Shown in pieces: positions 32,550 through 59,760 of a DNA stretch of 64,000 nucleotides. The notes below the pieces were generated by a model. That model was given only the letters and a program-made list of their open reading frames with translations, was not told the origin of the DNA and ran no database searches. Position 1 is the first letter of the stretch. Each line of letters starts with the position of its first letter. The position numbers and the translations under genes are program-made. Where the stretch lies: positions 58,177,159-58,241,158 of the forward strand of contig CM049313.1 of the NCBI GenBank assembly GCA_026874595.1. The letters run 5' to 3'. Source of the stretch: Sipunculus nudus (taxonomy: Eukaryota > Annelida > Sipuncula > Golfingiida > Sipunculidae).

Positions 32550-32700
32550 ATCAAAGACGATGGATAAGGCAGACCACATTGAGATCATTCGGGAAAACCG
32601 AGTGTACTTGGTGAAGACGATTGACGTCATGGCCACGCCCATTTTAGATCAGCTGGTCCAAGATCGGGTCCTCAGCCAGGAAAAGTTCTCATCAATAAAG
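32550..32700 (+). CDS. Gene C coding exon 1: start and first half of CARD
   Basis: The acceptor TTCATTACAG precedes a short leader and ATG at 32,560-32,562; the coding part is 32,560-32,700. It encodes residues 1-47, beginning MDKADHIEIIRENRVYLVK, then ILDQLVQDRVLSQEKF, the typical N-terminal helices of a CARD. The donor is AAG/GTTTTT, phase 0. The acceptor before the ATG implies a 5' non-coding exon upstream. Confidence 0.85.
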
Positions 32701-35700
32701 GTTTTTATATATAATGAATAGAAGTCGCTTTACTTAATTGTTTGTCCACTAGAATTGAGGGCTGACTGACTGACTGAAAGTAAAGTTGGCGCTCGAGCCA
32801 GCTAAGGTCTCCGGCCCACACTGGCTCCCTTAGCAACGACAAAGTTTCACAGATTGAGTTGGTATACAGTTAGTATTTAGGGCGAAAATAGAAGATACTG
32901 ACAGAATTTAAGGTCGTAGTGGGAGAGGTGGAGGAAGCCGGAGAACTCGGAGAGAACCACCTATCTTGGACAGGCCACTACATCCCTCTCTCCTGGCAGC
33001 ACCTCTCTCCTGGGATCGAACCCGTGTCGTCAGCGGAGAAGGCTGAGTGTTTTGCCGCTCAGCTATCCAGACCCTTAGAACTGAGAGCTATATGAGCAAT
33101 TTGGGCTTACCCTAACAGTAAGCGGCAAATCTGTCCAATGAATGATGCAGGGCCTTTGGATTTCGCTTACTACAAGCTAGAGGGACATATTTCCGAGCCT
33201 TTTGTATTATCATATAAGGTGCAAATGTTGGGTGCATAGGAAAGTTTAATTCTATCGAGTGCTTATCATAATGTTTGGTATCATGTTCGGTATCTCATTT
33301 TTCCGCTAGAGTTTAGTTTCTGAAATTTACTAAAGTGCACCACAGATGTCGCTACCTACCGAGCCATGCACAAACCATCAGCACTGACACATTCATTCTC
33401 TTCCAACAGGATAAAAAATTATGACTACCTCTGAGAAAAAAAAATATATATAAAAAGGTTCTTGTCTCCCACCATCTGAAACCAATATTTTTTTCCTCAT
33501 ACATTTAATGCCTAACATTCTCTACTGCCCTACAGTGTTTAATGCCTGCTCACTCTTGACGCCATAAAATGGGCCGACCTTGGCCGGACCCAGAAATAGG
33601 CCACTCTTATCTCAAGGTACCTGGTCTCACAGGCCATTTTATCGAAATAGAACACAAAGCCTTGGTAATTCATTTGATTTCGGTTTTGTTACCATTGTTG
33701 CATAGAGAAGACTAGAAATCTGCATTCTAAGGAATGCATGCTGTCGTAAGGTGTTTGCATTCACTATTTCGCCCATATTCCAAGGTTCATTTGTGCATAA
33801 TTGACGGTACATTTGTGAATTTTCTTGATCACGTTACTGAATCCAGGTAATGCACCGTATCCACATCAAACTCTACTCGATTATTCTTTGTCCATTCCCG
33901 AAATGCCCTGTGAATTGCATAAGATTCCGTTCATGATTGCGTGAGTTATGTTATGAACAAACACACACACAAACACACGAATGCATATAAACCCCTACCC
34001 TCCTGGCCGAGGGAAACAGATTATTCTCTTTACGCTGAATATAAACCTACTGTAACATTTTATTTATTGTCATCGCACCCTTATTGGATACAAACTGTTC
34101 TATACACAACATTAACTCATTCGTTGAAGTAAAAACTGAAGTTTATATTAATGGTGCACACATTGATGATATTAATGTCTTTATTTACTAGGACCGTCAC
34201 GTGACCAACATGCAGCAGGTATCGGCATTATTGGATCACCTGAACACAAGGCCAGAGGAGGACTGGAAGAAATTCTTATCGTGTCTCACCACGCATGATC
34301 ATGAACACGTGGCCAAGAAGTTACAGAAATGTTAGTCTGTTTTATTTAAGGTTTTCTGTATTCTTTCATAACTTCGAGTTATGCGCCTATAGACTAGCTT
34401 TGTTCTTTCGTTCGTCCCTCAGTCACTAAACTTTCAAAAGCGACGCGACGTTACAATACCGATATTCAGAAGCATTTAACATGGGAGGTTGTATATAGAG
34501 ACGTTCTGACCTGATTAGCTATTGATCATATTGAATATATTTGGTTAAGATTTGTTTTGAGCTTATTTTCAATTTGACTTCAACATTTCTTATACAACAT
34601 CAAATCAAACGACAATACTCGACCCACTTCCGAATTAGATTTGAAATGGACCTTAAAGATCTTCTCATCTGATTAATGGTTCTTATGTTTCTTTCTTTTA
34701 CATTATATTACTAATTTCTTTTATTTCAAGCCAAAGTACACGTTTCTCAAGTTAAATCCCAACGGGTGATTTTTTCCTCTCTGGACAATAATTTTAGATT
34801 AATATGTATTTATCCTGTTCACGTATCCTAAGAACTCCTCTTTCAGGCTTTAACGAGAAAATGATGACATCTTTCGAAAGGAAGAGAGCAGAAATATTTG
34901 CTGCAGAAGTTGATCGTATGAACGACTGTTCACTCGTACTGGATAGGTAATTTTATAGAGTGATAATAGAAGCACACTTAGCACGTGACTTTTACATTTT
35001 GATAAATTAAACTTATCTTTTAGTCAGTAATGTTTTCATGTAACAAGCGTATGTTTAATTAATCCAATGAAAATATTAAAATTTACTGATAAACTTTATT
35101 AAAGTCCAAATGCGTGACCAATATAACCTAGAGAAAGGTAAACTCAGATATAAATCCTAATTATCCGATTGTCCATAACAGTAATCCTTCATAAATTATG
35201 ACGGAGACTCATTTATTTTAGATCAAAATCAGATTTTGAATTATATACCAACAACATGTTTTTCTTGATGTTGATTGGTTCTCTTAAATTAAAGGTATTA
35301 AAAATTGGTCATTATGGTAATATTGTTTTTTTTACATGCTTCTTTGGCTGAATTCATTTTCAATGTATGCATTCCTTCAGTTTTCTGGAATCAAAGAGGT
35401 TACCGATGGTACTTCATACAGAAGTAAAGATCCTCAACACGTACGTGATAAGGGCAGCATCCCAGGTGAAAGATGCAGGAGGAATCGCGAAACTGGAGGA
35501 CACATTGCCAACTGTCTTTGAACTGGGACAAACGAATAACGATATTTTAGACCAGGTATCCTTTATTTATCTTATGAAAATAACATTTAAATATTCAACT
35601 TGAAACTTATAGCAAGTAATACAGTTGCTATAAAATCCAAAGAAATGTCACTGATGTTCTATGATTATATTATAAGATTATAACCGATTAAATTCCTACA

Positions 35701-38700
35701 ACTGATTAAATCAGTGATCTACTAACTAGTAAAGTGAACGTTGGTTATCTGGTACTAATGACTGCTGGTATATACATATATTTGTACTTTCCAATGTAAA
35801 TAGGATCATATTAAGTATTAAAATATAGAAACAAATAGGATCATATTCATTATTGAAATTTTGAAACAAAGAATATCTTAACTACATCTTAACTACCTCA
35901 TATACATTAAGAGCTTACAGGTAAGTGTTATTTTAGCGAGTAAAAGTTGACGTCAATTGTTTAAATTGTCAATTAAACCTGCAAATTAATGAATACATAA
36001 ACGAGCATCCTGGAGGAACCTTCTATACTAATCTTCGGCAATCTTATAGCAATACACTTTTCAAGGTAGATGTATACTGAGACTGATGACTTTTGACAGC
36101 TTATCACTTAAATTTCACAGTTTAAAATATATCATCACTGGTCTTTTGATATTTGCATTAGATGATAGATCAGATCTTGGGTAGTCTGACAGCAGCTCTG
36201 AAGATGAGATCTCTGGAATTAATTGTATATATTGTAGATTACTAATCATTACGTTTCGCTAAAAAAATAATAACAGTTCCTCATGAGTCACAGAAGTCAA
36301 AATTAACATTCTTTCATACTTTTGAAGCATACATGTAGTCACTATAATGAAATATTGCAGGCAGGTCTCGTCCTGGAAGCGGCAGAGGTTTATGAGATTC
36401 TGAGGCGCAGCCAAGACAGAGGAGGCAGGACCTCCAAACCAAAACAAAATCTAGATGAACGGCTGGAAAAACTGAAATCCCAATTAATGAATCATTGTGG
36501 TATCCATGAGCATGCGGCAGAAGCAGACAAACTGATAAAAAGCCGGTTCGAGGAGCAGAAATCTTTCATAGATCTACTGAGCAAGCCTGAAGTAAGTTTT
36601 ACTGATGTTCATTCTTTTAATGAAATATATTCCGTAGTGTGAGCTCATGTATGAGTGTGAACCCTTTTTAGCTCAGCTGACTTTCAGCCATGCTGGGCTA
36701 TAGCGATGGATCTTTGTCCGTCGTCCTTCCGTCTGTCCGTCAGCAGGGCACAAATCGTAACCTAAAGGGTTAGGATCATGAACCCTATGCAGTCTATAAA
36801 AGGTTCTAAAAAGATCTCCTCGCAGACCTGAAATTAGGTCACTGCGACCTATATTCTCTTAGTTATGGGGTGTGTCTGCATCCCGCAGAATTAATTCTTT
36901 TAGCCAAAATTTTCATCGCAAACCTTTCATTTTTCACATACAGCTCACCTACCAACAGGGAAAGAACCATAATTATTTTGACTTCACAAGGTCAGAGGTC
37001 AAGGTCACAGGACCCTCTTCTATGAAAAGCTTGTGGATGCATTTTAAGGAAAACCTTTCATTCCAACCCTTTGATCTTTCACATATGTCTCACCTACCAA
37101 GTGGGAGAAGAATCCTATAGATTTTGAGGTCACAAGGACAAAGGTCAAGGTCACAGGATCGATTTCTTTAAAAAGGTTGCGGACACATTTCAAGCTAGAA
37201 TTTTCATTCCAAACCTTCCAGCACTGACATATCGCTTCCCTGCCAACAGGGAAAAAGACCTGTTGATTTTGAGGTCAAAGGTCAAGTTTCACAGCACCCA
37301 CTTATTGCGTGGAGTGAGTCATTTTGAGGCAAACTTTTCAACCTATAACCTCCATCTGTCATGTATGGCTAACCTACCAATAAGGGAAGAACTCTATTGA
37401 TGTTGAGTTCAGAAAGTCAGAGGTCAAGGTCACAATACTAAATTGTTCCAAATGCTTGTGAACATATTTCAAGCTAAACGGTTTATCCAAAACTTTCAGT
37501 CTTTCACATATGCCTCATCCATGCATCACTCAATTTGATTCAAATATATGCATGGGTCTTTCTGCTTGAAGGAATAACTTATTGATTTTGGGGTCAGGAG
37601 GTAAAAGGTTGCAGATCAAAGTTATTCACACATTGGTTGCCAAAATAGTACTCCAGTTTTAAGTGGTAAGTAGTTACCCATCACTTTAAAAAGAATCCAA
37701 TTGATATGTGGGCAAAAGGCTAAGGTCATAGGTCAGGGATGGTCACAATAAAAACTTACTTTGTAGACCATCTCTATTTTATTTGTCTATATAACCATTG
37801 CACTCCAACTGGTACATTTCACTGTGTGCCCATCATTGTCAGTGACACTTGTGAAATATTACTCCCTTTTGTATCAGCTCATGGTGTGATAAGGACATAT
37901 CATTAGGGCATAACAAAAACAATGTTGCCAGAATGCTTTGGCCAGGCATTAAGACTATGAGAGTAAACTGTTAAGGTTTAGCTACTGATTAATAAGATGA
38001 TGGGAACATTTTGCAGTTTATTTCATGGAATCATAGCAATAAACTTAGTTTTCTAGATATCTGAATATTATTATACAAATCATCAGATATACCAGCAAGT
38101 GTTTGTTCTGATAATATGTGGGTCTTTACCTGGATTTAGGATGGCTTTATTTGATTACAAGACTCTTAATGATGCTTTTTGTATTTCTTTTCTTTCAGGT
38201 TTTGCAGTTTACCTTCCCTGCTGACCCAATTGAAAAGCAATGTGATAATTAAAAAATATTGGACTTGCACTTTTTACATTTGCATGTCCATAAATCTGAC
38301 ATGATTTCTCTAACTTGATCATGCCTTTTGAATTTTTTGGGACATTCATAACTGTAACATTCTCTGGAGCAACTGCCACAAGTGTGGTCTCTTATTGGAG
38401 GATGTGTGATATCAAATGTCAGATTTGGGAAATCCATTATGTCAGGTAGCCAGCTTAAAAAACTTTTTGCCAATGCAGTTTCTGTGATTTTTTTTTTCAA
38501 TGTTTGGTCCCTTTAAGAGGATGTTGTTCAATTTCCTACCTGTCAGAAATTCAATAAGGCCACCAGGAAGCCATCTTTAAATTCCCTTAGCACATATTTT
38601 CTCAAGAACTATTAAAGTGAATGCAGTGGGATGTATATTAATGTAATTTTGCATTTGGTCAAATATTTCTTAATAAATATGACCATCATTTATGAAAGCT

Positions 38701-41700
38701 CCGTACAGTTGGCTTGTATTGAATAAAAATTAATACAGAAGCACCGGTTTCTCAATTATTCTTGCATGGATTTCATTAATTTTTTGCTATATATTTAAAT
38801 CTTATATGTGGCCCATGTGGTATTCCTTTTGAAACTGACAGGTAACAAGCAAGCTTTGGGATTAGTTCCTTATAGCTCAACAACCATACATTTTGCCTCA
38901 GACCATCAATTCACCGTGTTTTAGCCAGACATATGTGATATATATTTATGTCAACGTTGAAAGTTTCAACAAAACTGACATATAGTTTCTTCAACAATTT
39001 GACTGGAAGTTGTGAATCGCAGCCCATGATGTCGCAGGTCATGCTTGGCAGTTAAGCGTCATGACCCATGGGTCACTTGTTGTATTAGCTCATACTAACA
39101 CAAGCCTCTATGACTTAGACGTCAAATAATGAAGGGAAAATATGTTCAGTTAGCCTTTTTAGCTCATGAACGTAAAATGTATCAGCAGGATATCTGTAAA
39201 AATGCTCAACTGATTTTGCTCAGATGACTTTCAGTTATATTGAACTATTGAGATCACCTTCCGTCCGTCGTCCTTCCGCTAGCCGTCGTGCTGTCCTGCC
39301 GTGCGTTAGTAAGACACGACTTTTAAAACTTCTAATTGAATATCTATTGAGGTAAATAAAAGACTAGGAAACCTTACATTGCTTGATAACTTTAGATGTA
39401 TTGCATAATTTACTCCTACATTTGACACACTAAGTTCTCAGATTAGTTAAAAAAACTGGTGATCTTGACCTTCAAAGTAAGCACTGCGGAATACAAGGAT
39501 TGTGATCCCTTCAACGTTTGAAGAACTGAAGATTTTCCCCTCAAATCAGTTGTTTCCACCATTTACTCAGATGAAAACTGGAGACTTTGATCTTCAAGTT
39601 CATATCTACATAAATATATGATAATTTATGACTATAATAACTTTTTAAATACTGCATATTTTTTTCTTTAAATAAACAACAGTATTTTCTGTCATATTAT
39701 TGAATAAGAGCTTCAAGGTCAAACCTGTATAAATCTAGTATAACTTTTTTGAACTGTATAGTTTTGAAGTATTTTCCCCTCAAATTTGGCACAAAACTTG
39801 TTTCCACAAGGGTCTTTGAGAAACTGAAAAACAGGTGATCTTGACCTTGAACTACAAATTCAAATCAGTCTAATTATTTTTTATCATAGGGATTTCTTGT
39901 TAACATCATATCTTATAGTTTGTCCCCAGCTTTGATAGAAAACATGTTAAAATCAAGGTATTAGAGGAGTTTGAAAACTGATGACCTTGACCTTGATATA
40001 ATTCCTCTTTTGTACAACCTGTGGAGACCAGTCTTGATTGAATTAAACATTACAAGTGTGAACCATCAGTTACCAAAGAACGCAGTCCCATTTTGTGCCC
40101 GAAGGTCTAAGGTCAAGACTACATCTGAAGTTAATCTCATTTTGATTTCAGATGATAAATGTCCTGTTGAGAATATTAAGCTAAATGTCAGGCGAGACAT
40201 CTGAGCGTCATGACCTATGGGATATTTGGGGAATCAGTATATTAATGAGGGGTTTACACAAGAAACATTTGAAAACAAAAAATGACGAATATGGAAGGAT
40301 CTGGATCCTCATATTAATTTCACTGGTCCATCCCCCCGATAAAAGAAAACTTTCTTTTCGCCAGTCACCAATCCTTCTAAGAAATTTCATCGAAAGCCTT
40401 CAATAACTAAGACTTGGCTCGGACACATGCACACACAGAGATATTGCAACTCACATGATCCCCTGCATTTTGTGTTGTCGGAGGTAATAAATTTATAAAA
40501 CCCTATTTGTTTTATGTATATTGTCTAAATTTTGTATTTGTCTTATTTAACACCAAAGATTTATAACATGGTTTCTTGTTCCCGGTTCACTTGATTATTA
40601 TAATTTTCCTCTGTTTTTCGTATTGATGAAATCTGCTAATTAACTGAGCGACATGAGTCTTCGGTCAGTAACTTTTACTTTTATTTAGTGGATATTTAAT
40701 TTATTTTAGGACAAAATAACCCAGGTACTCCAACAGAAAAATTCCTGGTTTAGCAAAGTGGAATTATCAGCTAAGGAGCTGGAGAGTCTAATGGAGCAGG
40801 TTCGCACGCTGAAGGAAACATCCTCAAGCCTCGAAAGTGAGATCAAGGAAAAAGAAATAAATATGCGTATGTATTAAACATATGTAAGCCTACTTTAAAA
40901 AATCACCTGAATGAGTCATATTAGGCAAATTAAATAATGCTCTGTCATCCCCGGCATACGGAAATTATACGAAATACATCACTCCTCAGTTAGCGACATA
41001 CTGTATAATAACGGAAACAGGAGGTAACCCCCCCCCCCCCCGTCCAACCCCCCACCCCTCCTCCACACACACACGCACACCCCGGCCGAAAGTGAGCGAT
41101 AATAAAGACTCAGCTATTGAACAGATAACCTTGTAAAAATTGTCAAGATAAAAAAAAAATCGGTTTCAAATATGTCACTTATGAGTAATTTTGTAAGGTA
41201 ATTTTCATTACTTCGGCAGATTTGAGACCTAGTGTAAAACACAGGCAAAATTATTTTAAAGAAGGAAAAATGATTTTGCTTTTTTGGGGAACTAAGAATT
41301 TCTACCCACATAACAAAATACACCCAATTATTAATATTGGCATAAACATATAGGCCCCTACTAGCCTACCTTTCCTACGGCGGAGGGCTTAACTTATTAT
41401 CTAGACAAAATATTGTATGCAGCATTAACGCTTTCTTGGACACCTTGTCAATTCTCATTTACCACTGAATGACAAACAGAAATCCCAAATAATAAATTTA
41501 CGATGGAATGTTTATATGGTGAAATAAGCATTATATGTATTGTTATAAAATAAATAGTTTAATATTCAGACCAATACGTACCAACAACTAGAACCCATAA
41601 CTGTTTACAAATTATAAACGTAAAAATGAAATTAAATAGATTTAGATAGGTCAGTGTTATTATACACGTTAATAAATTTTATGAAATTTTTAGGTTGGTG

Positions 41701-44700
41701 ACGCGATATAACCATGGGATTTGAAAACTAATTTTTCTTCACCATTTAACAAGTCATAGTAAAAAATATAAATATCAGGTGCAAATCTTTCGCTTATGAC
41801 AAATATTTTGCCCGAAGGTCATTTTTAAATCAGTTATTTTGAGATCTAACGCTTCCACAGACAAGAAGAAAGGAAAAGAGAGGAAACATTGGAATTGCTG
41901 ATTTGATACCCATAAAAAAATTGACCAAAATGTTAATATGAAAATAATCCTACCAACCCCTTATAGAGTACCCACCATAAGGAGAAGGCTTCATTAAATA
42001 TCTTTGCTTCATGATGTAACCGCAAGCCACGGATAACCTTGAGCCTTTTATGCATTACAGGAAGCAGGTTGATGTCTGTAACTGACACCGGTGGAGGAAG
42101 CCCTGATGTGCATCGACTGATCGAGCAGGAACTCGATCACGTGTTTTCTCCCCTACAAGACAAAGTCAAAGAGAACCTCAGGTTACACAAGAGCTTAACA
42201 GACCAAATATCAGTAGGTAACAATAAATATCACCAAATGCTAGTGACTTGTGTAAAGATGTCTGAATACATTCACAAATTTAATACTATTTAAAACGGAT
42301 ACACGAATGAAGTAAATCTTGCCAGAATGTAAGAATGTTCTCTTCATAGATTTTTTTATAGAACACCTGGAGGGAAATATACCTGCAGAAACATATAATG
42401 TCACATCTTGCTGTATTTGGAATACACATTTATCTGTACGATGCTGACTTAAATCTCTGTGGTTGATAAAGAGTATAATATTCAGCCATTTTTCCCAGCT
42501 TGATTTGTTTATACGTCTAACTTGTATTCTCACATCCGATAAATTGTATGGACGTAGTGCGGTGTTATATTTTCGCTTTTCCCCCAAGAAAATCTGCCGA
42601 ATTACTTGGACCCTTTCTTTTTTCCTTGCTCTTATCCACATTCTGGGTTTTGGTTCTTCGAGAATGTTTGGTCATGTAATATTAGTACCTCATCACTCAC
42701 GGTTACTTAATTTACTCCGCAATTTCTTTACCATCAACAAAAAGGTTTCAAAGAGCTGCTGTGGACACACAAATGTACAAAATGTTTATAAAAAAACGGG
42801 TTGTGCCTGGTTATCAGTACCTCAAGTTAGAATCCTATAAATTTCAGCATGCCTATGAAGAATACAATAAAAGATTAACACGAACCCAGGAATACATGAA
42901 CTCGTTCACCAGGGCCTTCGCTGAGCTGCAGGGACACCTGGAAGAAGCTCACCAGGTAATTTAATGTCTTAGTGTAACCAACTGTTATATTAATATGAGC
43001 TTCCATCGAGTTATTTATTTATTTTTGACAAGGAAGGTATCAACGGTCTTCCACTTATTAGTTATGGGTTCTGTTCTCGAATGCATTCGAACCATCTGTA
43101 ATTTGACAGAATTAAAATAAAAAATAAAAACGATGCGTTGATTTACTGTTGGCCAAAATGTCCTATGTTTTCACAATACATAACAAAAAAAAAAATGTCA
43201 TAAAACGACTTTACCTTTCAATATAATTTTAATATACAACGTACAACTAAATATATGGATCGTACGTGTCTGAACGTGGCGTCACGGCCAGTTACACACG
43301 TATCAGAGTCGTTTTCCGAGAGACGAGGAGGCATTTAATTTATACAATGTTCCATCGGAGTAAATTTTAATGTGTTGTTTAAAAGGTGTTTGTCTTTTCA
43401 TATTATAAATATGTATCTAATTTCCATGTGTATGTATTATTTAAGTTCTACAAGGACGAGAAGGTGTTACTTGACAAGTTTAAAGCAAAGGTAAAGTCCT
43501 TCTACGCAGAAATTATCTTCGACGTGCGTATAGAAAATAAAGGCGCAGAATCAACTGGACCAGTTACAGGTAAATATGGGACATCATGACACGCATACAT
43601 AAACATACAAATTGCGCAATATGCTTGAGAAGGCAATTAATATTATAACGTTACTTACCTCTAAAAGACGCCAAATATGAACATGGCTACCGGTAAGCAG
43701 GCCATTGGGTTTGGATACACAGTGTCAAAATGCTGTGATTACTGTGCAGTCCCCTTTGTGATATTGTTTGTAAAATAGTCTAGTAATTTTGAACACTATG
43801 TGGTCTCAAAACTGCAAGTACAAACTGAGAGCCATATAAATTTGTTTAAATGTGCACTAAATAATATTAGTTTGATTCCACAATCATACATAATGCATAA
43901 GCATGGATTTAAAATGTTGTTAAATATGCTTCTATAGCTTTTTCTAATAGTTACCTACTTTTGTACAATATTTTCGATATTTCCAGTTCTACGTTTGTTA
44001 TTCTTCTCTCGTGTGCTTGGCAGCTTATATAAGATATAATGCTATGAAAGCTTGCGCCTGTAGTAGACCATGTGTATCATTCCTTATATATTATCATTTT
44101 AAACCTTATCTAAATAGCCAGGGGTTAATTACTCACTCGCCTTCAATTTATTGATACACTGTTGAATGAAAAGTTATGAAATTTAATATGGTATTGATTT
44201 TAAACGTATAGGAAAGGAGGCCAGTAACGATGCGACGTTCAGGCAAGCAAGAGAACTACATCGACTACGTAAATCTACGGACTCCCTGATCCGGCATGTT
44301 TCACTTTATGTATATAGATATTAAATTTTAAATTCGTAGTCGAATATATTGGTTGTCAGAATTTTTGAACAGTTTGTGTTATTACTCTGGCGATCCTTGC
44401 ATAAGGATAGAACTGCTTCTTGTGATGAAGTTTCATAGCCATGAAGTTCAAAGATAGCAGAGTAATTTTGCTAACTCTTTAGGCATCGTAATTTATCGTA
44501 AGGTATCGGTTGAACAAAATGAAGCTTGAAGCAACCGTTTACTCTAAATTAAATGTTTCGTCCGACCATTGATAACAGTGCGAAGATAATTGTTGTGTGA
44601 AATAGCTGGCTCAGCATATACTCGAGACATAAAGATAATATAGAATTTTTTTTACTAAAGTTATATGACAAATAAATAAATGTGTAATATTTCTCATCTG

Positions 44701-47700
44701 TGGTAATTCAAGTTTTTAAAGCAGCTTCATTTGCCAGTCTCCATTTTATCTTTTTTTAATCAAATTAATACGGTATTTCTACTTCCAGACTTCTTGAATC
44801 AACCAGTCTTCCGGGAAAGTTGGTAGGCTTTCATGACGTCATCAAAATGAGGTCAGTTATGGAAGCAGCTGAAAAAGTGAGGGAGGACGGTGGGATCCAG
44901 GGAATCAACAAAGAACTTGAACAGTGTTCCTCGCTTAGGGATTGCGCGAAAGGAATACTTGACCAGGTACTAGTTAGTCCTTTCCATGGTATCTCCGTAG
45001 AAAACCACAAATAAATTATAGTCTGGAAGGTAGTGGGCGAATAAATATGAGTTAGTGTGCCTTTGGCCTCTTCTAAACTGTGTTGCAATGATCGTATGAT
45101 TAAAAAAAATGTGCTTTACTTCAAAATATACATTTTTGCCCTAAACGAAAATACCAGACTTTGTCTCATACACACGGTTATCTTTATCACTATTTGAATT
45201 TTTATCACTTTTACATAATTGTTATTATTAAAAGAATTACAGCTTTAAAATTTACCTAATTAATCAATCTGTGGTGTAATGGAATATTAACATTTTGTCC
45301 CTTGTTGTCAAATCTTGGATGCCATTAGGTCAAAATGACACAGACGAGCGCCATGACTAGTTAGCCACTTGTTTACCTACCTAGGTATACACGTATAACA
45401 GAAATATGGACTGTTGCACTTAGTCCCTGGTATTAACATTAGTTGAATATATGCCACTGTTAGACAGATGATTAGAAGCTTAGCCGTGATATTGATAAAT
45501 GTAAGATATAGCCCGGCTTAGTCGGAGGTTGGTGCTCACTGAATACCTTTACAATGTGGAGTCTCTCTTCTATTTCAGGCAATTAAGATGATAGAATCAG
45601 ACAGCATCTCTGATAAAGAGTTCAGGAGAAAATACAAAAGTGCTTGTATGCCCGCTCCTCCAGACGCCGATGCCTCGCCCCTGAGAAATAAAGCGGAGTA
45701 TTACAAAACAATTTATAATCAAGGTACCCAGGCAGATACGGTAGTAAAAGAACAATACAAGAAGCACTACAACGCAGTGAATACGCTCAGCCGTTCAAGG
45801 GTAAGTACAGACCGGTTTATTCAGTCAGTTCGATAAAAAACACCAGTAATTGAAACCTTGGTCAATGCCTCTGGCAAATACTAGTATAAGTAGTCATGTG
45901 TGCACATGCAAGGACTGAATTAGGCTATCCCCATTAACAACTACTCCAGGCAATTTGAAATCAGTTTTAAATAACCCCCTAAAAGACTTGTCTGAATTTC
46001 ATTTTACACTCGGACTGTTAAGAATACCATAGATTTACGAAATGATCAAGCTTTATGCGTCTAACTCATGATATGTGAATTCAATAAAGTACCCAATATA
46101 CGCATGATTTAAAGCTGTAGTAATTTCGTGAGAGATCGATTCGCGGCAAAATGTTAATTATATTGTTAGTTATAATAATGTTATATAAAATACACCTCAC
46201 CAGAGCGCATACATATAGTACATCACGTACAAATGCAAGATGTACAAAAATGCAACCTAATTCTAGAAATCAAGAAGAAAGAAATTATGCAAAAGAAAGT
46301 AAACAAAAAAAGTAAGAAAAGTAGTTATGACGGGAAACTCTAAAACCTTTAATGGTAATCTGAAATCGATCATTTATTCAATTTTAAGTCGATTTCAGGT
46401 TAAACCGATAAGTTGAAGCGGGGGTATTCTGATATCGTTACACAGTTTACATTAGGGCGGTAGGAGCTCCTTATAGGCTGTAATTTACGGGGGTGAATGT
46501 CCACTGTCTTTATTACAGATTTATTTTTGCAAAATGTTAGATTAATGTACACATAAACATAGGATAAACCCATTCTATATTGGAGTTGATCTTATTTAAC
46601 ATTATTCTTTTTTATCCCATGTGACCGATTAAAGATATATTTTATTAAAGGTAAAATGTACTATTTAAAATAGAAATATCAGTTCCCGTAAAAACTACAC
46701 CTGATGAAACAAGCATTCATTGTGAGATTAATATATATGCACTGTGGCGATTTGCAATGAAGTGCAAAGTTTGTGTTCTCTTTACGACGAGTTTTGTTTC
46801 ATCAGACTGATATGGTCTGGTCTTTGTCTGATGGCTTTGCTGTGTTACCGGAGGAGGTTACGGCAACTCAGAAACTCCGTCAGCTTCTCAAGGGCGTTAT
46901 ACCCATCATGACTCAGAGATATGAATTGGAAAGGAACATCGAGAAAATGGAACTAGATACATTATGTATGTACACAAAACTCTCACCTTCACTTTTGAAA
47001 GAGGCAACTCGCAGTTAATTATGTTGAACCAATTAAAATAACTCCTAAAAATATCTCAGTTTAGCACAATCAAATCCAGCTTAATAGCAGGTGTATTCGT
47101 TAGCTGTCTGAAACCATCTGAGTTATAACGATCACTTTTTGTCCGTTTGTCTGCCCGTCTCTCTGTCTGTTCGTCTGTCTGTCCATTAATTAACAGGGTA
47201 CAAATCGTACCAACTGGAATCTTCTTACTTGACATTCAGAGGTCCAAAAAAATCTCCCTTGACACCTGCATTTTGGTCACGGCGACACATATTCACCGAG
47301 CTATGGGCTCTGTTTGTACATCCCAGAATAATTAAAAAAAAATGATAGAAAATCCAGTATCTTTATTGCTAATGCATTGATTGCCATGATTCATTCCATC
47401 CGTTTTCATCATGGACAGTATCATCAGTTCCTGAAGACTGTTGGTGCCACCTGAAGTTTGTTGTAATTTTTACGCATTTTAAGCAGAAACCGTAACCGTT
47501 TGACCTAAAAACTTCTAACTGTACATCCAGGGAGGCCACAAAAATCTTCTTGGAAACCAGCAATATGGTCGTGGTGATCTGTATGTTGCGAGCTACGAAA
47601 CAAAAACTTTTTTTTCAGCAGCCAGATAGTCAGACAGGGCACGAATTGTATTCACATGCCCTATTAGCCTATAATCTTCTTTTGTATCATTAAGGGAGGT

Positions 47701-50205
47701 CCTACGTATATGTCCTTGGAAACATGAAATAAGGTCACCGTGACCTTTATTCTGCGAGCTAAACGGAAAAATATGATATGAGCATCTGGAGGGTTAGATG
47801 GGCTCAGATTGTATATGTTAGACCTAGAATCTTCTGACACAACACCCAGACAAGGTCCGGGCAAATTATCATAGAACCGTAAATTAGGTTGTGATGATAT
47901 ATATTCTGCAAGCCAAAACCATGAATCTTAGCACCCAGACAGGTAAACAGAGCACAAGTTGTATCCTTTAGCCTTGGAAACTCCTAGCTGTACTTGCATA
48001 GAATTCCAAGGCAAATCTCACCGGAAACTTGAATTTAGGTCATAGTGAGCTATATTCTGAGATCTTCTCATCAAAAACATGATTTGGAGCAGTCAGACAG
48101 GACACAAATCGTATCCATTAGGGATAGAATCTTCTAATGTGACATTTAGGAGGGTCCTGGGTAATGTCCTGGGAAACCTGAAACTAAATAATGGTGACCT
48201 ATATTCTGCAAGCAACTGGCAAAAAATATAATTGAGCACTCAGACAATCAGAGAGGTCACACAACTTTCCTGTTGGGCTTAGAATCTTCAATTTGGACAA
48301 CCAAGGAGGTCCTTCGCAAGTACCCATTGAATCTCGAAATTAGGTCACAATGACATATATTCTGTGTGCTACGAGCAGAAAACATTATTGTTAGCACCCA
48401 GTGATACAGATCATAAATTGTATCTGTTAGACCTTGAAACCTCTTACTGTATATACAGAGAGATCCTTGGGAAATCTCCTCAGAAACCCGACATTAGGTC
48501 ATGGTGACCCATATTCTGTAAGGCGCTCACTGAATAAATAATTTTAGCACACAGCGAGTCAGTTAGGGCAAAAATTGTATCTATTAAGCTTAGAACCATC
48601 TAATGTGGCATTTGGGGAGGTCTTTGGTAAATATCCTTGGAAACCTGACACATGGTCATTGTGACCTATGTTCTGCAAATGACTGGCAAAAATATGATTT
48701 TGAGCATCAAGACAGTAAGACGGGGCACAAAACTTTATTGTTGGAGTTAGAAGCTCCTAGTATAACAAGTCTCCTTTGAATTCTGAAATAGTTCACCCTG
48801 TGTTATATTCTGTGAGCTACAAGCAGAAAATCTAATTTTGATAAGCCAGAAATTCAGACATAGGCCAAATCTTAACTGTTCTATCTAGAAATGTCTTTGT
48901 TAATATAAGGTAAGGTCACTGTAATGTCTCCTTGGACATCCAAAATAAGGTCATTGTGAGATATACTGCATGAGCTAAGTGAAGGAACATGATCGGGGTT
49001 CCCTATTTGTCAGATGGACAGAAGTAACAGCACTTTGACGTAGAAACTCTTAACTTAGCATCTCTCGAGTTCCTGTAAAATCATCTTCGAAACTTAAAAT
49101 AAGGTCACAGCTACCTATTTTCTTAAAGACTATGGGGAAAATTTACGATTTCGAGCACCCCGGAAGTCATTTTAACCATTGTTCAAGGCTCCTTAACTAT
49201 TTCTTACCAGATCGTAACATTAATAACCAATCGTAACATCAATAACTAATGCATGCATCACCTGTATGTCAAATTCAGCTGAGCGTCACGGCCCATGGGC
49301 CAATGAACCACAGACCAGTTCATGAGTTCTCAATAATATATGCATGGACAGAATAATCGTATACAGACGAATCCCACTAGTCACAAATATGCAGTGTCAA
49401 CAATCATATTTGTTATGTGATATCTGATATATAATAGAATGGTAGCAGTTATTTTGCTGGTCAAGGGGCTAGACAAACGCACTCTGTAGGTGAAGCAATA
49501 ATTCTTAAGCGATGGTTAGCAAGAAACAGATAAATCCAAAACTATTTTCATTATGTCTTGAAAATAATCTTATGCAAGTTCATTTTCTGCTCGCTAACTT
49601 ATTTCAAGCCCGTCGTCTGATGACCGGTCTTGCGTTTGTCAAGTCACAACCAAGGAAATCGAAAACATGTTCATCCCTACAAGAAAGCGTGAACTGTAAT
49701 ATAAATCAGCAGGAGGAACTTATCGCTCAAATTAAGGTGAGTGAAAAGTTCCATTTTCAATTATTCAGCTCACTTCATTTTATGTAGCGATGGCCTTTGT
49801 CTCTCTCTCCTTCTGTCTGTCAGATCATCAGTTCATGAAAACATAAAGTTAATATTCACGTTATGCACCTTTCATCTGTTTTTGCCGAAATACCAAATGA
49901 GGTCATCGTGACCTATTTTTATGCAATTAGCCAATCATATTCTAGGATATACGCGATATGTCCGGGTATTAATTAAGCCTGTCCTTTTCATCCAGGGTAT
50001 CCTGAAAAAAAACTGTAAACCGACGACTTTGACTCATGATTCAGTTCATCAAACTGAACATCAAACGTGAATGAAAACACATTACATAATTCGCCGGTGT
50101 TTTGCGAATGATAATCAACCCACAGCTATCAACAAAGTGCAGATGTGCTGAGGTCTCCTTTTTAAGTATTAGTTTCCGATACATAAAATAATTAAACACT
50201 TATTA

Positions 50206-50291
<86 letters not shown>

Positions 50292-51753
50292 AGAACTTGA
50301 AATGTACGCTACTGTGGCCTGTATTTTCCGAGTTGTGGGCCAATATATAATTTTTTAGACCTTATAACCATGACGGCGGTTCTTAAACGTATCCATTTTG
50401 GACTTTTAAGTAATATGAAACAACAGTTCTGCCGTGATTTGTATAATGGTATCCCATTATATTATTGATGTGGTTATTGAACGTTTTAATTTTGTCATTA
50501 ATAACTCTTTCCAGCATGGAAATAGTTTAAGTTACATCTGATACCTTTGAAACTTTCCTGTTATAAATTCGCTCAGCAACTTTATACATGGTGTATATAT
50601 TGTCTGACAAAAGGGAATCAGTGTCGAATTCAGTTATCACATATTATTATTATTATTTTGAATTTTTATTATTATTTTTATTAATTTTCCAAAATCTTAA
50701 TAACAATAATAGTTATAACTTTGATGAAGTAAACAAGTAAATCTATTATAACCACCCTATATTGTTGTTAAGATAGTGTTTGATCCACGTGTATCGTTTC
50801 AGATTGCCGCTGCAGAGTTATGCAGTGTTCAACAGAGTGAGGTGCAGTCTACGGACAAGACAAAGCAGCTGTATGCCGCCTTTGATAATTACATGGAACT
50901 CAAAACTCTTTTACAAGAGGGCAAAACGGTAAGGCCTCAAGATTATACGTGCTATTCTCATTATCCCGGGGAAAAGTCCCCATATGCCAGATTCCACTTT
51001 ATACACATAATATTATTTATGAAGTTGTTTACTGAAATTCTCCTTTTGTTCATTCTGCACCACAGTTTCGATTATGGCTTCATGTAGAATAATACCTGTT
51101 GCTCCATGACACATCCATGTAAATGTTCTTGGAGTTCCTGGGTTTTGCGAAATCGATATTCACACTTATTGTTTCAAACGCGTATTTATATTGCAAAGAT
51201 TCCAACACTTTACTCACAAATTCATTATTCGTTTTACTTCCCGACAACGCTACACCGAAATGGATTTATCACTAAAGTCCAGGGGCGCATAGAGGATTTG
51301 AGAACAGAAGTTAATTGTTCTCAGCCTTGTTCTCATAATGCTAATGATAAAACATGAGAAAGATCCACAGTTAGTGCAAAGAGAAAAATCTAGGTCCCCA
51401 AAACGAGTCTCCTCCCCTCCTCCTGAATCCGAATGTCATGTGAACAAACTGTGGACAGGAAGTTTGTAAAAGGATAGTAGGATTTCATTACTATTCGTAT
51501 AAAACCTGTGTTTAACAGTATGATTATGTATGTCTGAACCCAGCATCCATCAAAATGTACACATAATATTGACCAAATCTGTATTAAAAATGATTTTTTT
51601 CTTCCTTTTTTACTCAAGTTCTATGAGGATCTTATTCGTCTCCTGACCCGATTCTCGGAGGAAACGAATGATTTCTGCATCGAACGTCGCCTAGAAAGAG
51701 ACGAGTTGATAAAAATTCAACCACAACTGAGCCTCCCACGACATGACTACTGA
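32560..51753 (+). CDS. Gene C: CARD fused to two tandem ALIX-type V domains (768 aa, complete)
   Basis: Sixteen coding exons join in exact phase to 2307 nt, that is 768 residues plus stop. Residues 1 to about 92 form a CARD death-fold domain. Residues about 120-440 and 453-765 each align with the V domain of ALIX/PDCD6IP, the arm that binds LYPXnL motifs and ubiquitin and links cargo to ESCRT-III. Landmarks are GGI-x(3)-L at the start of each copy, a proximal helix ending LLSKPE in copy 1, and FY-[KE]-[DE]-x(3)-LL-x-[KR]-F. The V2 end FYEDLIRLLTRF...ERRLERDELIK closely follows ALIX. The BRO1 domain and the proline-rich tail of ALIX are absent. Human ALIX F676 corresponds to F402 and F725. Exons: 32560-32700, 34192-34330, 34847-34946, 35381-35555, 36361-36591, 40710-40866, 42061-42212, 42848-42955, 43446-43569, 44212-44242, 44789-44966, 45579-45800, 46806-46965, 49609-49736, 50803-50928, 51619-51753. 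The role is inferred: a CARD adaptor or ESCRT-linked scaffold. Confidence 0.85.
32905..33075 (-). mobile_element. tRNA-derived SINE in intron 1 of gene C
   Basis: The reverse strand reads TCTGGATAGCTGAGCGGCAA, ACACTCAGCCTTCTCCGCTG and B box GGGTTCGATCCC (plus-strand 33,012-33,023). The SINE tail GGAGGAAGCCGGAGAACTCG lies on the plus strand at its left end. It is the same family as 25,632, 31,653 and 54,690. Confidence 0.8.
34192..34330 (+). CDS. Gene C coding exon 2: second half of CARD
   Basis: A 139-bp exon, acceptor TTTACTAG, donor AAAT/GTTAGT, phase 0 to 1. It encodes residues 48-93: DRHVTNMQQVSALLDHL, EEDWKKFLSCLTTHDHEHV and AKKLQK. The spacing of hydrophobic residues and the W-x(2)-F-[LI]-x-x-L pattern are those of CARD helices 4-6. 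Confidence 0.85.
34847..34946 (+). CDS. Gene C coding exon 3: linker to V domain 1
   Basis: A 100-bp exon, phase 1 to 2, acceptor CTCTTTCAG, donor GATAG/GTAATT. It encodes FNEKMMTSFERKRAEIF and VDRMNDCSLVLD, a helical linker between the CARD and the first V domain. Its phases equal those of exon 10, the corresponding linker before V domain 2. Confidence 0.8.
35381..35555 (+). CDS. Gene C coding exon 4: V domain 1 start
   Basis: A 175-bp exon, phase 2 to 0, encoding FLESKRLPMVLHTEVKIL, VKDAGGIAKLEDTLPTVF and TNNDILDQ. It aligns to the beginning of the ALIX V domain (x-GGI-x(3)-[DE]-x-LPxL ... N-x-[ED]-ILD). Exon 11 is its duplicate (phase 2 to 0, 178 bp, GGIQGINKELEQ ... ILDQ). Confidence 0.85.
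36361..36591 (+). CDS. Gene C coding exon 5: V domain 1
   Basis: A 231-bp phase 0-0 exon starting AGLVLEAAEVYEILRR and ending ADKLIKSRFEEQKSFIDLLS, KPE. It corresponds to the ALIX V-domain segment with A-D-x(8-12)-[YF]-x(6)-I-x-LL-x-KPE. The partner of this exon in the second copy is exon 12. The donor GAA/GTAAGT is strong. Confidence 0.9.
36665..39081 (+). repeat. R1-family element, ~2.4 kb, in intron 5 of gene C
   Basis: It begins TTTTTAGCTCAGCTGACTTT followed by CCGTCGTCCTTCCGTCTGTC and ends TTAAGCGTCATGACCCATG, GGTCACTTGTTG. Inside are degenerate direct repeats of about 150-170 bp carrying AGGTCAAGGTCACAGGA, AACCTTTCATTCC and CACCTACCAA. A short cysteine-rich minus-strand ORF (38,249-38,500) is contained in it. 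Non-coding, shares both termini with copies at 39,215, 47,105 and 20,386. Confidence 0.8.
39215..40226 (+). repeat. R1-family element, ~1 kb, in intron 5 of gene C
   Basis: It starts TTTTGCTCAGATGACTTTCA with the CCGTCCGTCGTCCTTCC run at about 39,264. It ends CTGAGCGTCATGACCTATGG. The interior has repeats with GATCTTGACCTTCAAAG and TGAAGTATTTTCCCCTC. It is the second R1 insertion in the same intron and the same orientation. Confidence 0.75.
40710..40866 (+). CDS. Gene C coding exon 6: V domain 1
   Basis: A 157-bp exon, phase 0 to 1, acceptor TTATTTTAG, donor ATGC/GTATGT. It encodes DKITQVLQQKNSWFSKVEL, then ELESLMEQVRTLKE and SSLESEIKEKEINM. It aligns with the ALIX helix that includes the LLxxLxxVKxER stretch. 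Its partner in copy 2 is exon 13 (phase 0 to 1, LRQLLKGVIPIMTQRYELER). Confidence 0.85.
42061..42212 (+). CDS. Gene C coding exon 7: V domain 1
   Basis: A 152-bp exon, phase 1 to 0, acceptor TTACAG, donor TCA/GTAGGT. It encodes RLMSVTDTGGGSPDVHRLIE, then DHVFSPLQDKVKENLRLHKS. It corresponds to ALIX L-[DE]-x-[VI]-[YF]-x-x-L-x-x-K-V-x-E-[NS]-L. The partner in copy 2 is exon 14. Confidence 0.85.
42848..42955 (+). CDS. Gene C coding exon 8: V domain 1
   Basis: A 108-bp phase 0-0 exon encoding AYEEYNKRLTRTQEYM and SFTRAFAELQGHLEEAHQ. It matches ALIX A-[YF]-x-x-[FY]-x-E-L-x(3)-L-x-E-G. The partner in copy 2 is exon 15 (126 bp, phase 0-0). Confidence 0.85.
43446..43569 (+). CDS. Gene C coding exon 9: V domain 1 end, with F402
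   Basis: A 124-bp exon, phase 0 to 1, beginning FYKDEKVLLDKFKAKVKSFY. F402 is the first codon and aligns to ALIX F676 in KFYNEL. The exon ends with a short linker GAESTGPVT. The partner in copy 2 is exon 16. Confidence 0.85.
44212..44242 (+). CDS. Gene C coding exon 10: micro-exon linker, GC donor
   Basis: A 31-bp exon (phase 1 to 2) encoding KEASNDATF between split codons. It uses the donor TTCAG/GCAAGC, a GC-AG intron with an otherwise ideal consensus. Only this end restores the phase needed by exon 11; reading on leads to TAA at about 44,322. It is the shortened counterpart of exon 3, which has the same phases. Confidence 0.65.
44789..44966 (+). CDS. Gene C coding exon 11: V domain 2 start
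   Basis: A 178-bp exon, phase 2 to 0, acceptor CTACTTCCAG, donor CAG/GTACTA. It encodes LLESTSLPGKLVGFHDVI, VREDGGIQGINKELEQ and RDCAKGILDQ. It is a clear duplicate of exon 4, which begins FLESKRLP and ends ILDQ. Confidence 0.9.
45290..45375 (+). repeat. 3' fragment of an R1-family element
   Basis: The end block GAGCGCCATGACTAG, TTAGCCACTTGTTT resembles the R1 3' terminus, preceded by a TTAGGTCAAAATGACA word. Confidence 0.5.
45579..45800 (+). CDS. Gene C coding exon 12: V domain 2
   Basis: A 222-bp phase 0-0 exon. It encodes AIKMIESDSISDKEFRRKYK, then PLRNKAEYYKTIYNQG and ADTVVKEQYKKHYNAVNTLS. It aligns well to ALIX L-R-x-[QK]-[FY]-K ... N-[FY]-[RK]-x(7)-Q-A-D-x-x-V-K-E-x-[YF]-x-x-[HY]. The donor AGG/GTAAGT is strong. 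Confidence 0.9.
46806..46965 (+). CDS. Gene C coding exon 13: V domain 2
   Basis: A 160-bp exon, phase 0 to 1, acceptor TTTCATCAG, donor TTAT/GTATGT. It encodes DGFAVLPEEVTATQKLRQL and IMTQRYELERNIEKMELD. It aligns to ALIX L-x(2)-LL-x(6)-K-x-E-R-[ED]-x-[LI]-E-x-x-L-K. Confidence 0.85.
47105..49303 (+). repeat. R1-family element, ~2.2 kb, in intron 13 of gene C
   Basis: It begins near GTCTGAAACCATCTGAG with a TCTGTCTGTTCG run and ends TTCAGCTGAGCGTCACGGCC and CATGGGCC. The interior is a degenerate tandem array with unit words AGGTCATGGTGACCTATATT, ATTCTGCAAG, GGGCACAAATCGTATC and TTAGGCATAGAATCTTC-like segments. It is the longest array of this unit type in the window. Confidence 0.8.
49609..49736 (+). 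CDS. Gene C coding exon 14: V domain 2
   Basis: A 128-bp exon, phase 1 to 0, acceptor TATTTCAAG, donor AAG/GTGAGT. It encodes RRLMTGLAFVKSQPRKS, then INQQEELIAQIK. It is the counterpart of exon 7, and NQQEELIAQIK corresponds to ALIX KKQEGLLKNIQ. Confidence 0.8.
49767..49925 (+). repeat. 5' part of another R1-family element
   Basis: CAGCTCACTTCATTTTATGT, TCTCTCTCCTTCTGTCTGTC and TGAGGTCATCGTGACC match the 5' region of R1 copies. No 3' terminus was found nearby, so it is truncated. Confidence 0.5.
50206..50285. repeat. (TCTA)n then (TA)n compound microsatellite
   Basis: A TCTA tetranucleotide run passes directly into a TA run in intron 14 of gene C. Confidence 0.95.
50803..50928 (+). CDS. Gene C coding exon 15: V domain 2
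   Basis: A 126-bp phase 0-0 exon, acceptor TCGTTTCAG, donor ACG/GTAAGG. It encodes IAAAELCSVQQSEVQS, then LYAAFDNYMELKTLLQEGKT. It is very close to ALIX LATAYDNFVELVANLKEG. The exon end stands directly before F725. Confidence 0.9.
51619..51753 (+). CDS. Gene C coding exon 16: end of V domain 2, with F725 and stop
   Basis: A 135-bp terminal exon after acceptor TTTTACTCAAG. It encodes FYEDLIRLLTRFSEETNDF, ERRLERDELIKIQPQLSL and RHDY, then TGA at 51,751-51,753. F725 aligns to ALIX F676. ALIX continues into a proline-rich tail that binds TSG101 and ALG-2; this protein stops within about 16 residues of the ERDEL motif. Confidence 0.9.
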   Translation, partial: FYEDLIRLLTRFSEETNDFCIERRLERDELIKIQPQLSLPRHDY

Positions 51754-51761
51754 AGTTGTTT

Positions 51762-51767
51762 AATAAA
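51762..51767 (+). terminator. Poly(A) signal AATAAA of gene C
   Basis: AATAAA starts nine bases after the stop codon. Such a short 3' UTR is unusual, and later signals may be used instead. Confidence 0.4.
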
Positions 51768-59109: not shown

Positions 59110-59760
59110 CTCCCACGTGTCGTTACTGATCATTGCCAAGCTAGGCAAGCAACAACAGCGCGAGATACATGATTTGATAAACTAGCAGGGGGAAGTGTTT
59201 ACAGATGTCCCAAAACTCACCGATGTCATCGAAAGGAATATTCGAATCACTTCCGATACACCAGTGTCTGCTTAAGAAAATCCAGAACTCAGAAAGACCG
59301 AAACTAAGAAAGTCTTGCGAACCTTTCTATGCCTTATCGGTAATTACCGGAAGTTCGTGCTGGACTGCCGGAATTGCAATTCCGTTAACTGACCTTACAC
59401 AGAAAGGGCATTCAATCAAATTGGATTGGAAAGAGGTCCATAAAAATGCGTACGGTACACTTAAAGCTAAGCTAGCTAATTCCACCATACTGAGACTATC
59501 AGATTTCAGTAAGAAATGCGACGCGTCGGAATCGGGAGTATCCTTATACAGGAGCACGATTAGATGATGCATCCGACAGCTTATGCTAGCAGAAAGTCAC
59601 TGGCTAGAGAAATAAAATACTCTGCCCTCGGGATAGAGAGAGAGTGTTTTGCAATAGTTTGAGCTGTTCAGAAATTTGAGATGTACTTGTCATGTAGACC
59701 GTTGACTATACAGACTTACCACAAGCCGCTCCAGAGAATCAGCAAGGCCATCATGGGCCA
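59110..59760 (+). pseudogene. Reverse transcriptase N-terminus and RNase H, with RT core deleted
   Basis: QQQREIHDLIN-stop-QGEVFTDVPKL and NIRITSDTPV are the segment that precedes the RT fingers in gypsy pol. It then jumps to RTFLCLIGNYRKFVLD (the FLGLxGYYRKF block after RT), IAIPLTDLTQKGHSIKLDW, NAYGTLKAKLANSTILRL, and RNase H parts YASRKSLAREIKYSALGIER and FEMYLSCRPLTIQT. The RT palm with YxDD is missing between about 59,275 and 59,300, an internal deletion. Frameshifts are present. Confidence 0.8.

Follow-up and report, generated by a model that had tools for sequence, protein, structure and literature searches.

A predicted CARD protein with two tandem ALIX-type V domains drawing its parts from two kinds of host gene

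The window analyzed here, a stretch of 64,000 nucleotides, carries on its forward strand 16 exons (32560-51753) that join in one continuous in-phase frame and predict a protein of 785 amino acids, here called CARD-V, in which a CARD is followed by two V domains (V1 and V2; Table 1). The initial annotation had placed 16 exons in exact phase over the same interval, and our model agrees with it in exon number and outer ends; the length of 768 residues that it gave could not be reproduced. The analysis covers one genome, and the gene model is built from genomic DNA. The start codon lies in an ACGATGG context, the stop codon is TGA (51751-51753), and the G+C content is 45% in the exons versus 35% in the introns. 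Fourteen of the 15 introns are of the GT-AG type, the exception being intron 10, which requires a GC donor at 44293/GCATGT. A GT donor for exon 10 at 44268 was rejected because it breaks the frame; the GC donor restores the frame, repeats the phase pattern of V1, and leaves 14 residues to LLES, which is the spacing found in V1. With intron sequence as the null, the probability of finding 16 of 16 segments open in a single given frame is log10 P = -22.8. The gap between the CARD exons and the V exons is only 516 nt, and the phase-1 junction between them matches. If exon 2 were read on into intron 2 (34328-34335), translation would stop after a single further codon, with KLQKC as the last residues, giving a CARD-only product; AATAAA was looked for in intron 2 and is absent. 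By eye, intron 5 (36592-40709) and intron 13 (46966-49608) contain diverged repeats, with phrases such as 'aggtcac.gtgacctatattctg'. A frame at 59181-59567 (+) matches the reverse-transcriptase profile RT_RNaseH_2 weakly (22.2 bits, with a cut-off of 29.8) and is perhaps left over from a retroelement.

Table 1. Features of the predicted CARD-V gene (window positions) and examples of dispersed CARD loci (chromosome positions)
Feature	Position	Strand	Phase	Remarks
Exon 1	32560..32700	+		Start codon and N-terminal half of CARD (residues 1-47); CARD profile alone 27.7 bits
Exon 2	34192..34330	+	0>1	Second half of CARD, residues 48-93; CARD profile alone 16.3 bits
Exon 3	34847..34946	+	1>2	V1 exon a
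Exon 4	35381..35555	+	2>0	V1 exon b
Exon 5	36361..36591	+	0>0	V1 exon c, with D506 equivalent
Exon 6	40710..40866	+	0>1	V1 exon d
Exon 7	42061..42212	+	1>0	V1 exon e
Exon 8	42848..42955	+	0>0	V1 exon f
Exon 9	43446..43569	+	0>1	V1 exon g; FYKDE at start (degenerate FYXXL)
Exon 10	44212..44293	+	1>2	V2 exon a; GC donor
Exon 11	44789..44966	+	2>0	V2 exon b; 178 nt, length as in own ALIX
Exon 12	45579..45800	+	0>0	V2 exon c; 222 nt, length as in own ALIX; D506 equivalent
Exon 13	46806..46965	+	0>1	V2 exon d; 160 nt, length as in own ALIX
Exon 14	49609..49736	+	1>0	V2 exon e
Exon 15	50803..50928	+	0>0	V2 exon f
Exon 16	51619..51753	+	0>stop	V2 exon g; FYEDL at start (intact FYXXL)
Candidate poly(A) signal	51762..51767	+		AATAAA; starts eight bases after stop
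Dispersed CARD locus	C8:54924258-54927819			Example
Dispersed CARD locus	C5:42523563-42531457			Example
Dispersed CARD locus	C13:35196032-35203925			Example

Pfam profile searches identify a CARD (PF00619) at residues 9-92 (45.4 bits, 8e-12, over the curated cut-off of 23.9) and two stretches of ALIX_LYPXL_bnd (PF13949; 233 bits for the whole protein, 6e-69), so that the order CARD, V, V read by the initial annotation is borne out by profile for the CARD and for both V domains. When the whole protein is compared with the sequences of the PDB, it matches the human ALIX V domain through its V2 stretch (5.3e-27) and HD-PTP (2.7e-6); V1 taken alone also finds human ALIX V (4.7e-17, query residues 5-324). 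For the CARD alone, the nearest solved structures by sequence are ICEBERG, the best match (E 1.1e-4), and the caspase-1 CARD (7e-4); we know of no V domain in CARD-only or CARD-caspase proteins such as these. Pfam detects no BRO1, NACHT, or LRR domain in the 785-residue protein, and no BRO1 is found on its chromosome, C8, among 16 genome matches. A proline-rich C-terminal tail is also absent, the protein ending 12 residues after RDELIK.

The seven exons of V1 (exons 3-9) and the seven of V2 (exons 10-16) run through the same succession of phases, the last exon of V2 ending at the stop codon (Table 1). Likewise, the V-coding part of the ALIX gene of this genome (the own ALIX, C12:30504304-30515141) consists of seven exons whose order and phases, from 1>2 to 0>1, are those of V1, and three exon lengths are identical in V2 and in this ALIX. 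The V module is symmetrical (1-1) in the own ALIX and in V1, and both exon shuffling and tandem duplication need a symmetrical module. The junctions are those of an exon-shuffled fusion, with introns of the same phase, a phase-1 exit from the CARD, and a 1-1 V module. A second gene with BRO1 and V on one strand, located on C16, is presumably HD-PTP, and two of the introns that ALIX and CARD-V share are missing from it; HD-PTP was rejected as the source of the V domains because the introns of this gene disagree at both comparable places. Since the seven-exon phase pattern is common to V1, V2, and the own ALIX, and since the other BRO1-V gene is without these two introns, the V domains came from ALIX through exon shuffling and tandem duplication. 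HD-PTP (PTPN23) does share with CARD-V a V-type domain and an FYX2L motif (PMC5145805, in the part available), but its sequence match is much weaker than that of ALIX. With ALIX (PDCD6IP), CARD-V has in common the PF13949 match, the seven-exon phase pattern, and, in V2, F676, Y677, L680, and D506 (ALIX numbering); it differs in having neither BRO1 nor the proline-rich tail, in the doubled V domain, and in the CARD placed in front. A third BRO1-bearing locus was noted at C11:74545286-74548839, with no V match on C11 among the matches listed.

These exon data also bear on whether the gene exists as drawn. An artefact of the gene model, or a pseudogene, would mean that adjacent pieces never occur in one transcript, and the model, drawn from genomic DNA, does include one noncanonical donor. 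We nevertheless find this hardly credible in view of the 16 in-phase open exons and their log10 P, the agreement of phases across three V modules, and the short distance and matching phase-1 junction between the CARD and V exons.

Both V domains have diverged far from ALIX, with identities to the own ALIX of 30.2% for V1 and 33.3% for V2, and of 22.2% between the two. A tree of ALIX sequences made by a quick method places the own ALIX with the sequence P0002, then with Paralvinella, Capitella, Lamellibrachia, Helobdella, and one further sequence, and this set of seven stands apart from the molluscs with an SH-aLRT of 99. The DNA, from a genome of 1.43 Gb, had been ascribed to a mollusc in the initial annotation, which the grouping with annelids makes unlikely. 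In a separate tree, made to date the fusion, the branches of V1 (8.9) and V2 (5.1) are very long, and neither V1 joined to V2 (p-AU 0.469) nor the pair joined to the own ALIX and P0002 (0.147) is rejected, so that this tree sets neither the order nor the date of events.

The origin of the CARD half was traced within the same genome. A tblastn search with the CARD-V protein gave 57 scored matches out of 365 candidates, comprising its own 16 exons, one ALIX exon, and 40 other CARD copies, with no second CARD-V gene among these 57. The boundary between exons 1 and 2 of CARD-V falls at residues 47/48; four of the 40 copies span residues 3 or 4 to 47 or 57, and the other 36 start at residues 42-51 (25 copies) or 31-41 (11 copies), one of them extending to residue 149 through stops. 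A NACHT match lies downstream on the same strand within 10 kb of at least 12 of the 40 copies and within 25 kb of at least 19, counts that are lower bounds because 97 NACHT matches were used, 99 having been listed and 98 scored of 417 candidates. Random places come this close to a NACHT match in 0.6% (10 kb) and 1.25% (25 kb) of cases on the forward strand of C17, in 5% and 12% within the dense C17 cluster at 7.7-8.5 Mb, and in 0.75% and 2.1% within C17 at 44-58 Mb. The remaining 21 of 40 copies have no NACHT within 25 kb among the matches listed, which counts against the explanation that we favor. In a sample of the DNA behind eight CARD copies, the NACHT frames were confirmed by Pfam in four of four cases, each at 1.1e-16 or better, and one of these (on C1) is outside the NACHT match list; another of the eight copies (C17:8488526) is followed by a NACHT match at 11 kb, and the single 10-kb pieces behind two further copies (L035 and L039) contain no NACHT frame. 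C17 holds 55 of the 97 NACHT matches used, many of them clustered at about 7.7-8.5 Mb and 44-58 Mb.

The copies agree with CARD-V at their exon ends as well. In each of the six exon-2 copies read by eye, the match ends at a candidate GT donor in phase 1, as in CARD-V; this donor is gtaa in four copies and a weaker site in the other two (L027 and L039). Both exon-1 copies that were read have an acceptor just 5' of the ATG, at 5 and 14 nt versus 10 nt in CARD-V. Because this acceptor is common to CARD-V and to two of two NLR-type CARD exons, coding exons upstream of the CARD-V start are less likely, BRO1 exons being the only ones excluded outright. In exon 2, CARD-V shares 48-59% identity with the six copies, and from copy to copy the identity is 28-76%. 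The CARD half therefore looks like a member of the NLR CARD family of this genome, apparently fused to an ALIX V module through a phase-1 intron that suits the phase-1 start of that module. CARD-V shares with the genome's CARD-NACHT (NLRC-like) receptors the two-exon CARD, the phase-1 exit in the copies read, and the acceptor position, and it differs from them in carrying two V domains instead of NACHT and LRR. As predicted from the DNA, the protein combines parts from two kinds of host gene, one being the CARD-NACHT (NLR) family, which supplied the two-exon CARD, and the other ALIX, which supplied the seven-exon V module that is present twice in tandem.

We then compared this combination with described proteins. 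Precomputed Pfam assignments give BRO1 in 131 of 131 V-domain proteins among the matches listed and a CARD in none of them; the 131 consist of one match to the whole protein, the best 120 of 1046 to an ALIX query, and ten to a V2 query, and the ALIX query itself favors BRO1-bearing matches. Two earlier assertions, that V always follows BRO1 in known animals and that no characterized protein unites CARD and V, are in keeping with these counts and with the literature on ALIX and CARD, on the V-domain family, and on bivalve CARD combinations, where no CARD-V protein is found among the matches listed. The orthologue search with the whole protein gave one fungal BRO1 protein, and that with V2 gave ten BRO1-V proteins, one of them named (from a fungus), and no named animal ALIX, although the database contains many. 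Given that the V2 search missed these and is too insensitive at ∼30% identity, the absence of orthologues cannot be concluded from it. We would class CARD-V as a fusion of two known modules, a grafted gene of the CARD/NLR family, and not as a categorically new system; for a CARD combined with a doubled ALIX V, we found no earlier description. A parallel is found in the lophotrochozoan RLRs, immune genes of the same superphylum that are altered by domain grafting, as the available text of PMC8998645 describes; there, however, other domains are involved and the N-terminal part varies, whereas in CARD-V it is the part behind the CARD.

V-type domains bind YPXnL-type ligands at a site centered on the FYX2L motif, represented by F676 of ALIX, F678/Y679/L682 of HD-PTP, and F residues of the yeast proteins Bro1 and Rim20 (PMC5145805, in the portion available). 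This motif is intact in V2 and incomplete in V1, where L680 is replaced by E (Table 1). The comparison was extended to six pocket columns (498, 506, 509, 676, 677, and 680) of a reference alignment of 17 ALIX sequences, one of them a human fragment; positions 498, 506, and 509 we take to be ligand contacts of the ALIX pocket. V2 keeps 6/6 pocket columns versus 44/95 near-invariant columns (p 0.008) and V1 has the majority residue in 4/6 versus 33/95 (p 0.11), both p values being post hoc since the columns were picked after the alignment had been seen. Near the pocket, two residues that are invariant in ALIX, A502 and N669, are changed in V2. At an identity of only 30-33% between either V domain and the own ALIX, the ligand may differ from that of ALIX. 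In addition to YPXnL motifs, the ALIX V domain binds K63-linked ubiquitin chains (PMC4276913, in the part available).

A protein with a kept V2 ligand motif and no BRO1 could act as a natural dominant-negative ALIX, a V-only competitor for YPXnL ligands (cargo or late domains) whose level or location is set by the CARD. A human ALIX V fragment (residues 364-716) does block ALIX-dependent release, and F676D undoes the block, according to the available section of PMC5995805; CARD-V itself has no BRO1, none was found on its chromosome, and the V2 motif is kept. We consider this role unlikely, as it leaves unexplained why an NLR-type CARD was retained and why there are two V domains with one degenerate. 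The CARD could instead be the active part, capping the CARDs of NLRs or caspases in the manner of CARD-only inhibitors such as ICEBERG, with the V domains as a helical scaffold or dimer spacer. ICEBERG is the best match of the CARD among solved structures, and read-through of exon 2 could yield a CARD-only product; however, intron 2 has no AATAAA, and the pocket columns of V2 are kept above background, if over six columns only, which makes such an inhibitor rather improbable.

The initial annotation had pictured an adaptor that could bring cargo to CARD assemblies or bring ESCRT to them, in which case it might serve membrane repair or cargo removal. Of this picture the CARD-V-V architecture stands and the ESCRT link is weakened. 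ALIX contacts ESCRT through two regions, with BRO1 binding CHMP4 and the proline-rich region binding TSG101 (PMC4276913, in the part available). With both regions absent from CARD-V, only the ligand module would have been taken over, and a direct link to ESCRT is correspondingly weak. The V-type coiled-coil domain of HD-PTP binds the ESCRT-I subunit UBAP1 (PMC5145805, available portion), and in mammals ALIX and ALG-2 are required for the recruitment of caspase-8 to TNFR1 vesicles (PMC3742255, available portion); the intron positions, however, derive the V module from ALIX and not from HD-PTP. Taken with the missing CHMP4-binding BRO1 and proline-rich tail, this leads us to regard an ESCRT-recruiting adaptor as very improbable.

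The reading that we prefer, at roughly even confidence, is that CARD-V is an NLR-type CARD adaptor or sensor with an ALIX-type ligand, a YPXnL motif or ubiquitin, as its input. CARD signaling with an ALIX-type input is suggested by the missing BRO1 and proline-rich tail together with the kept pocket columns of V2, and signaling through NLRs or caspases is indicated because the CARD is of the type used by the NLR genes of this genome. NACHT-LRR would have been exchanged for ALIX V modules. V2, which keeps FYXXL, would bind multivalent cargo through YPXnL-type motifs, ubiquitin chains, or both, and the diverged V1 would serve as a spacer or regulator. Several CARD-V molecules gathered on such cargo would have their CARDs brought together, and these would seed an assembly with the CARDs of NLRs or caspases, so that the input of ALIX would be taken over and the ESCRT output would not. 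Annelida are reported to have NLR genes together with caspase-1-like and gasdermin E genes (PMC11508797, in the part available).

A further reading, which we hold to be unlikely, treats CARD-V as an integrated decoy, that is, an NLR relative whose sensor was swapped for the host ALIX V that enveloped viruses or other exploiters grip. Multivalent arrays of YPXnL late domains, or ubiquitinated cargo, would then cluster the protein and set off CARD signaling. If expressed as modeled, CARD-V would physically connect NLR-type CARD signaling with the ligand-binding half of ALIX, and it would make testable in animals the idea, described for plant receptors, that copies of trafficking proteins serve as baits for hijackers. 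Its intron record shows with unusual clarity how an immune fusion of this kind is put together.

Further CARD matches were noted in the same genome. With 150 of 650 candidates scored, at least some 50 CARD matches, dispersed over the genome, have a frame of 230 amino acids and near-equal scores (examples in Table 1). Most of these have a second CARD frame, of 275 amino acids, on the opposite strand about 3.1-3.6 kb away, and four of the loci also have a third, of 422 amino acids. From their frame sizes, scores, and spacing, the dispersed loci look like copies of a mobile or virus-like element that has multiplied and carries CARD genes.
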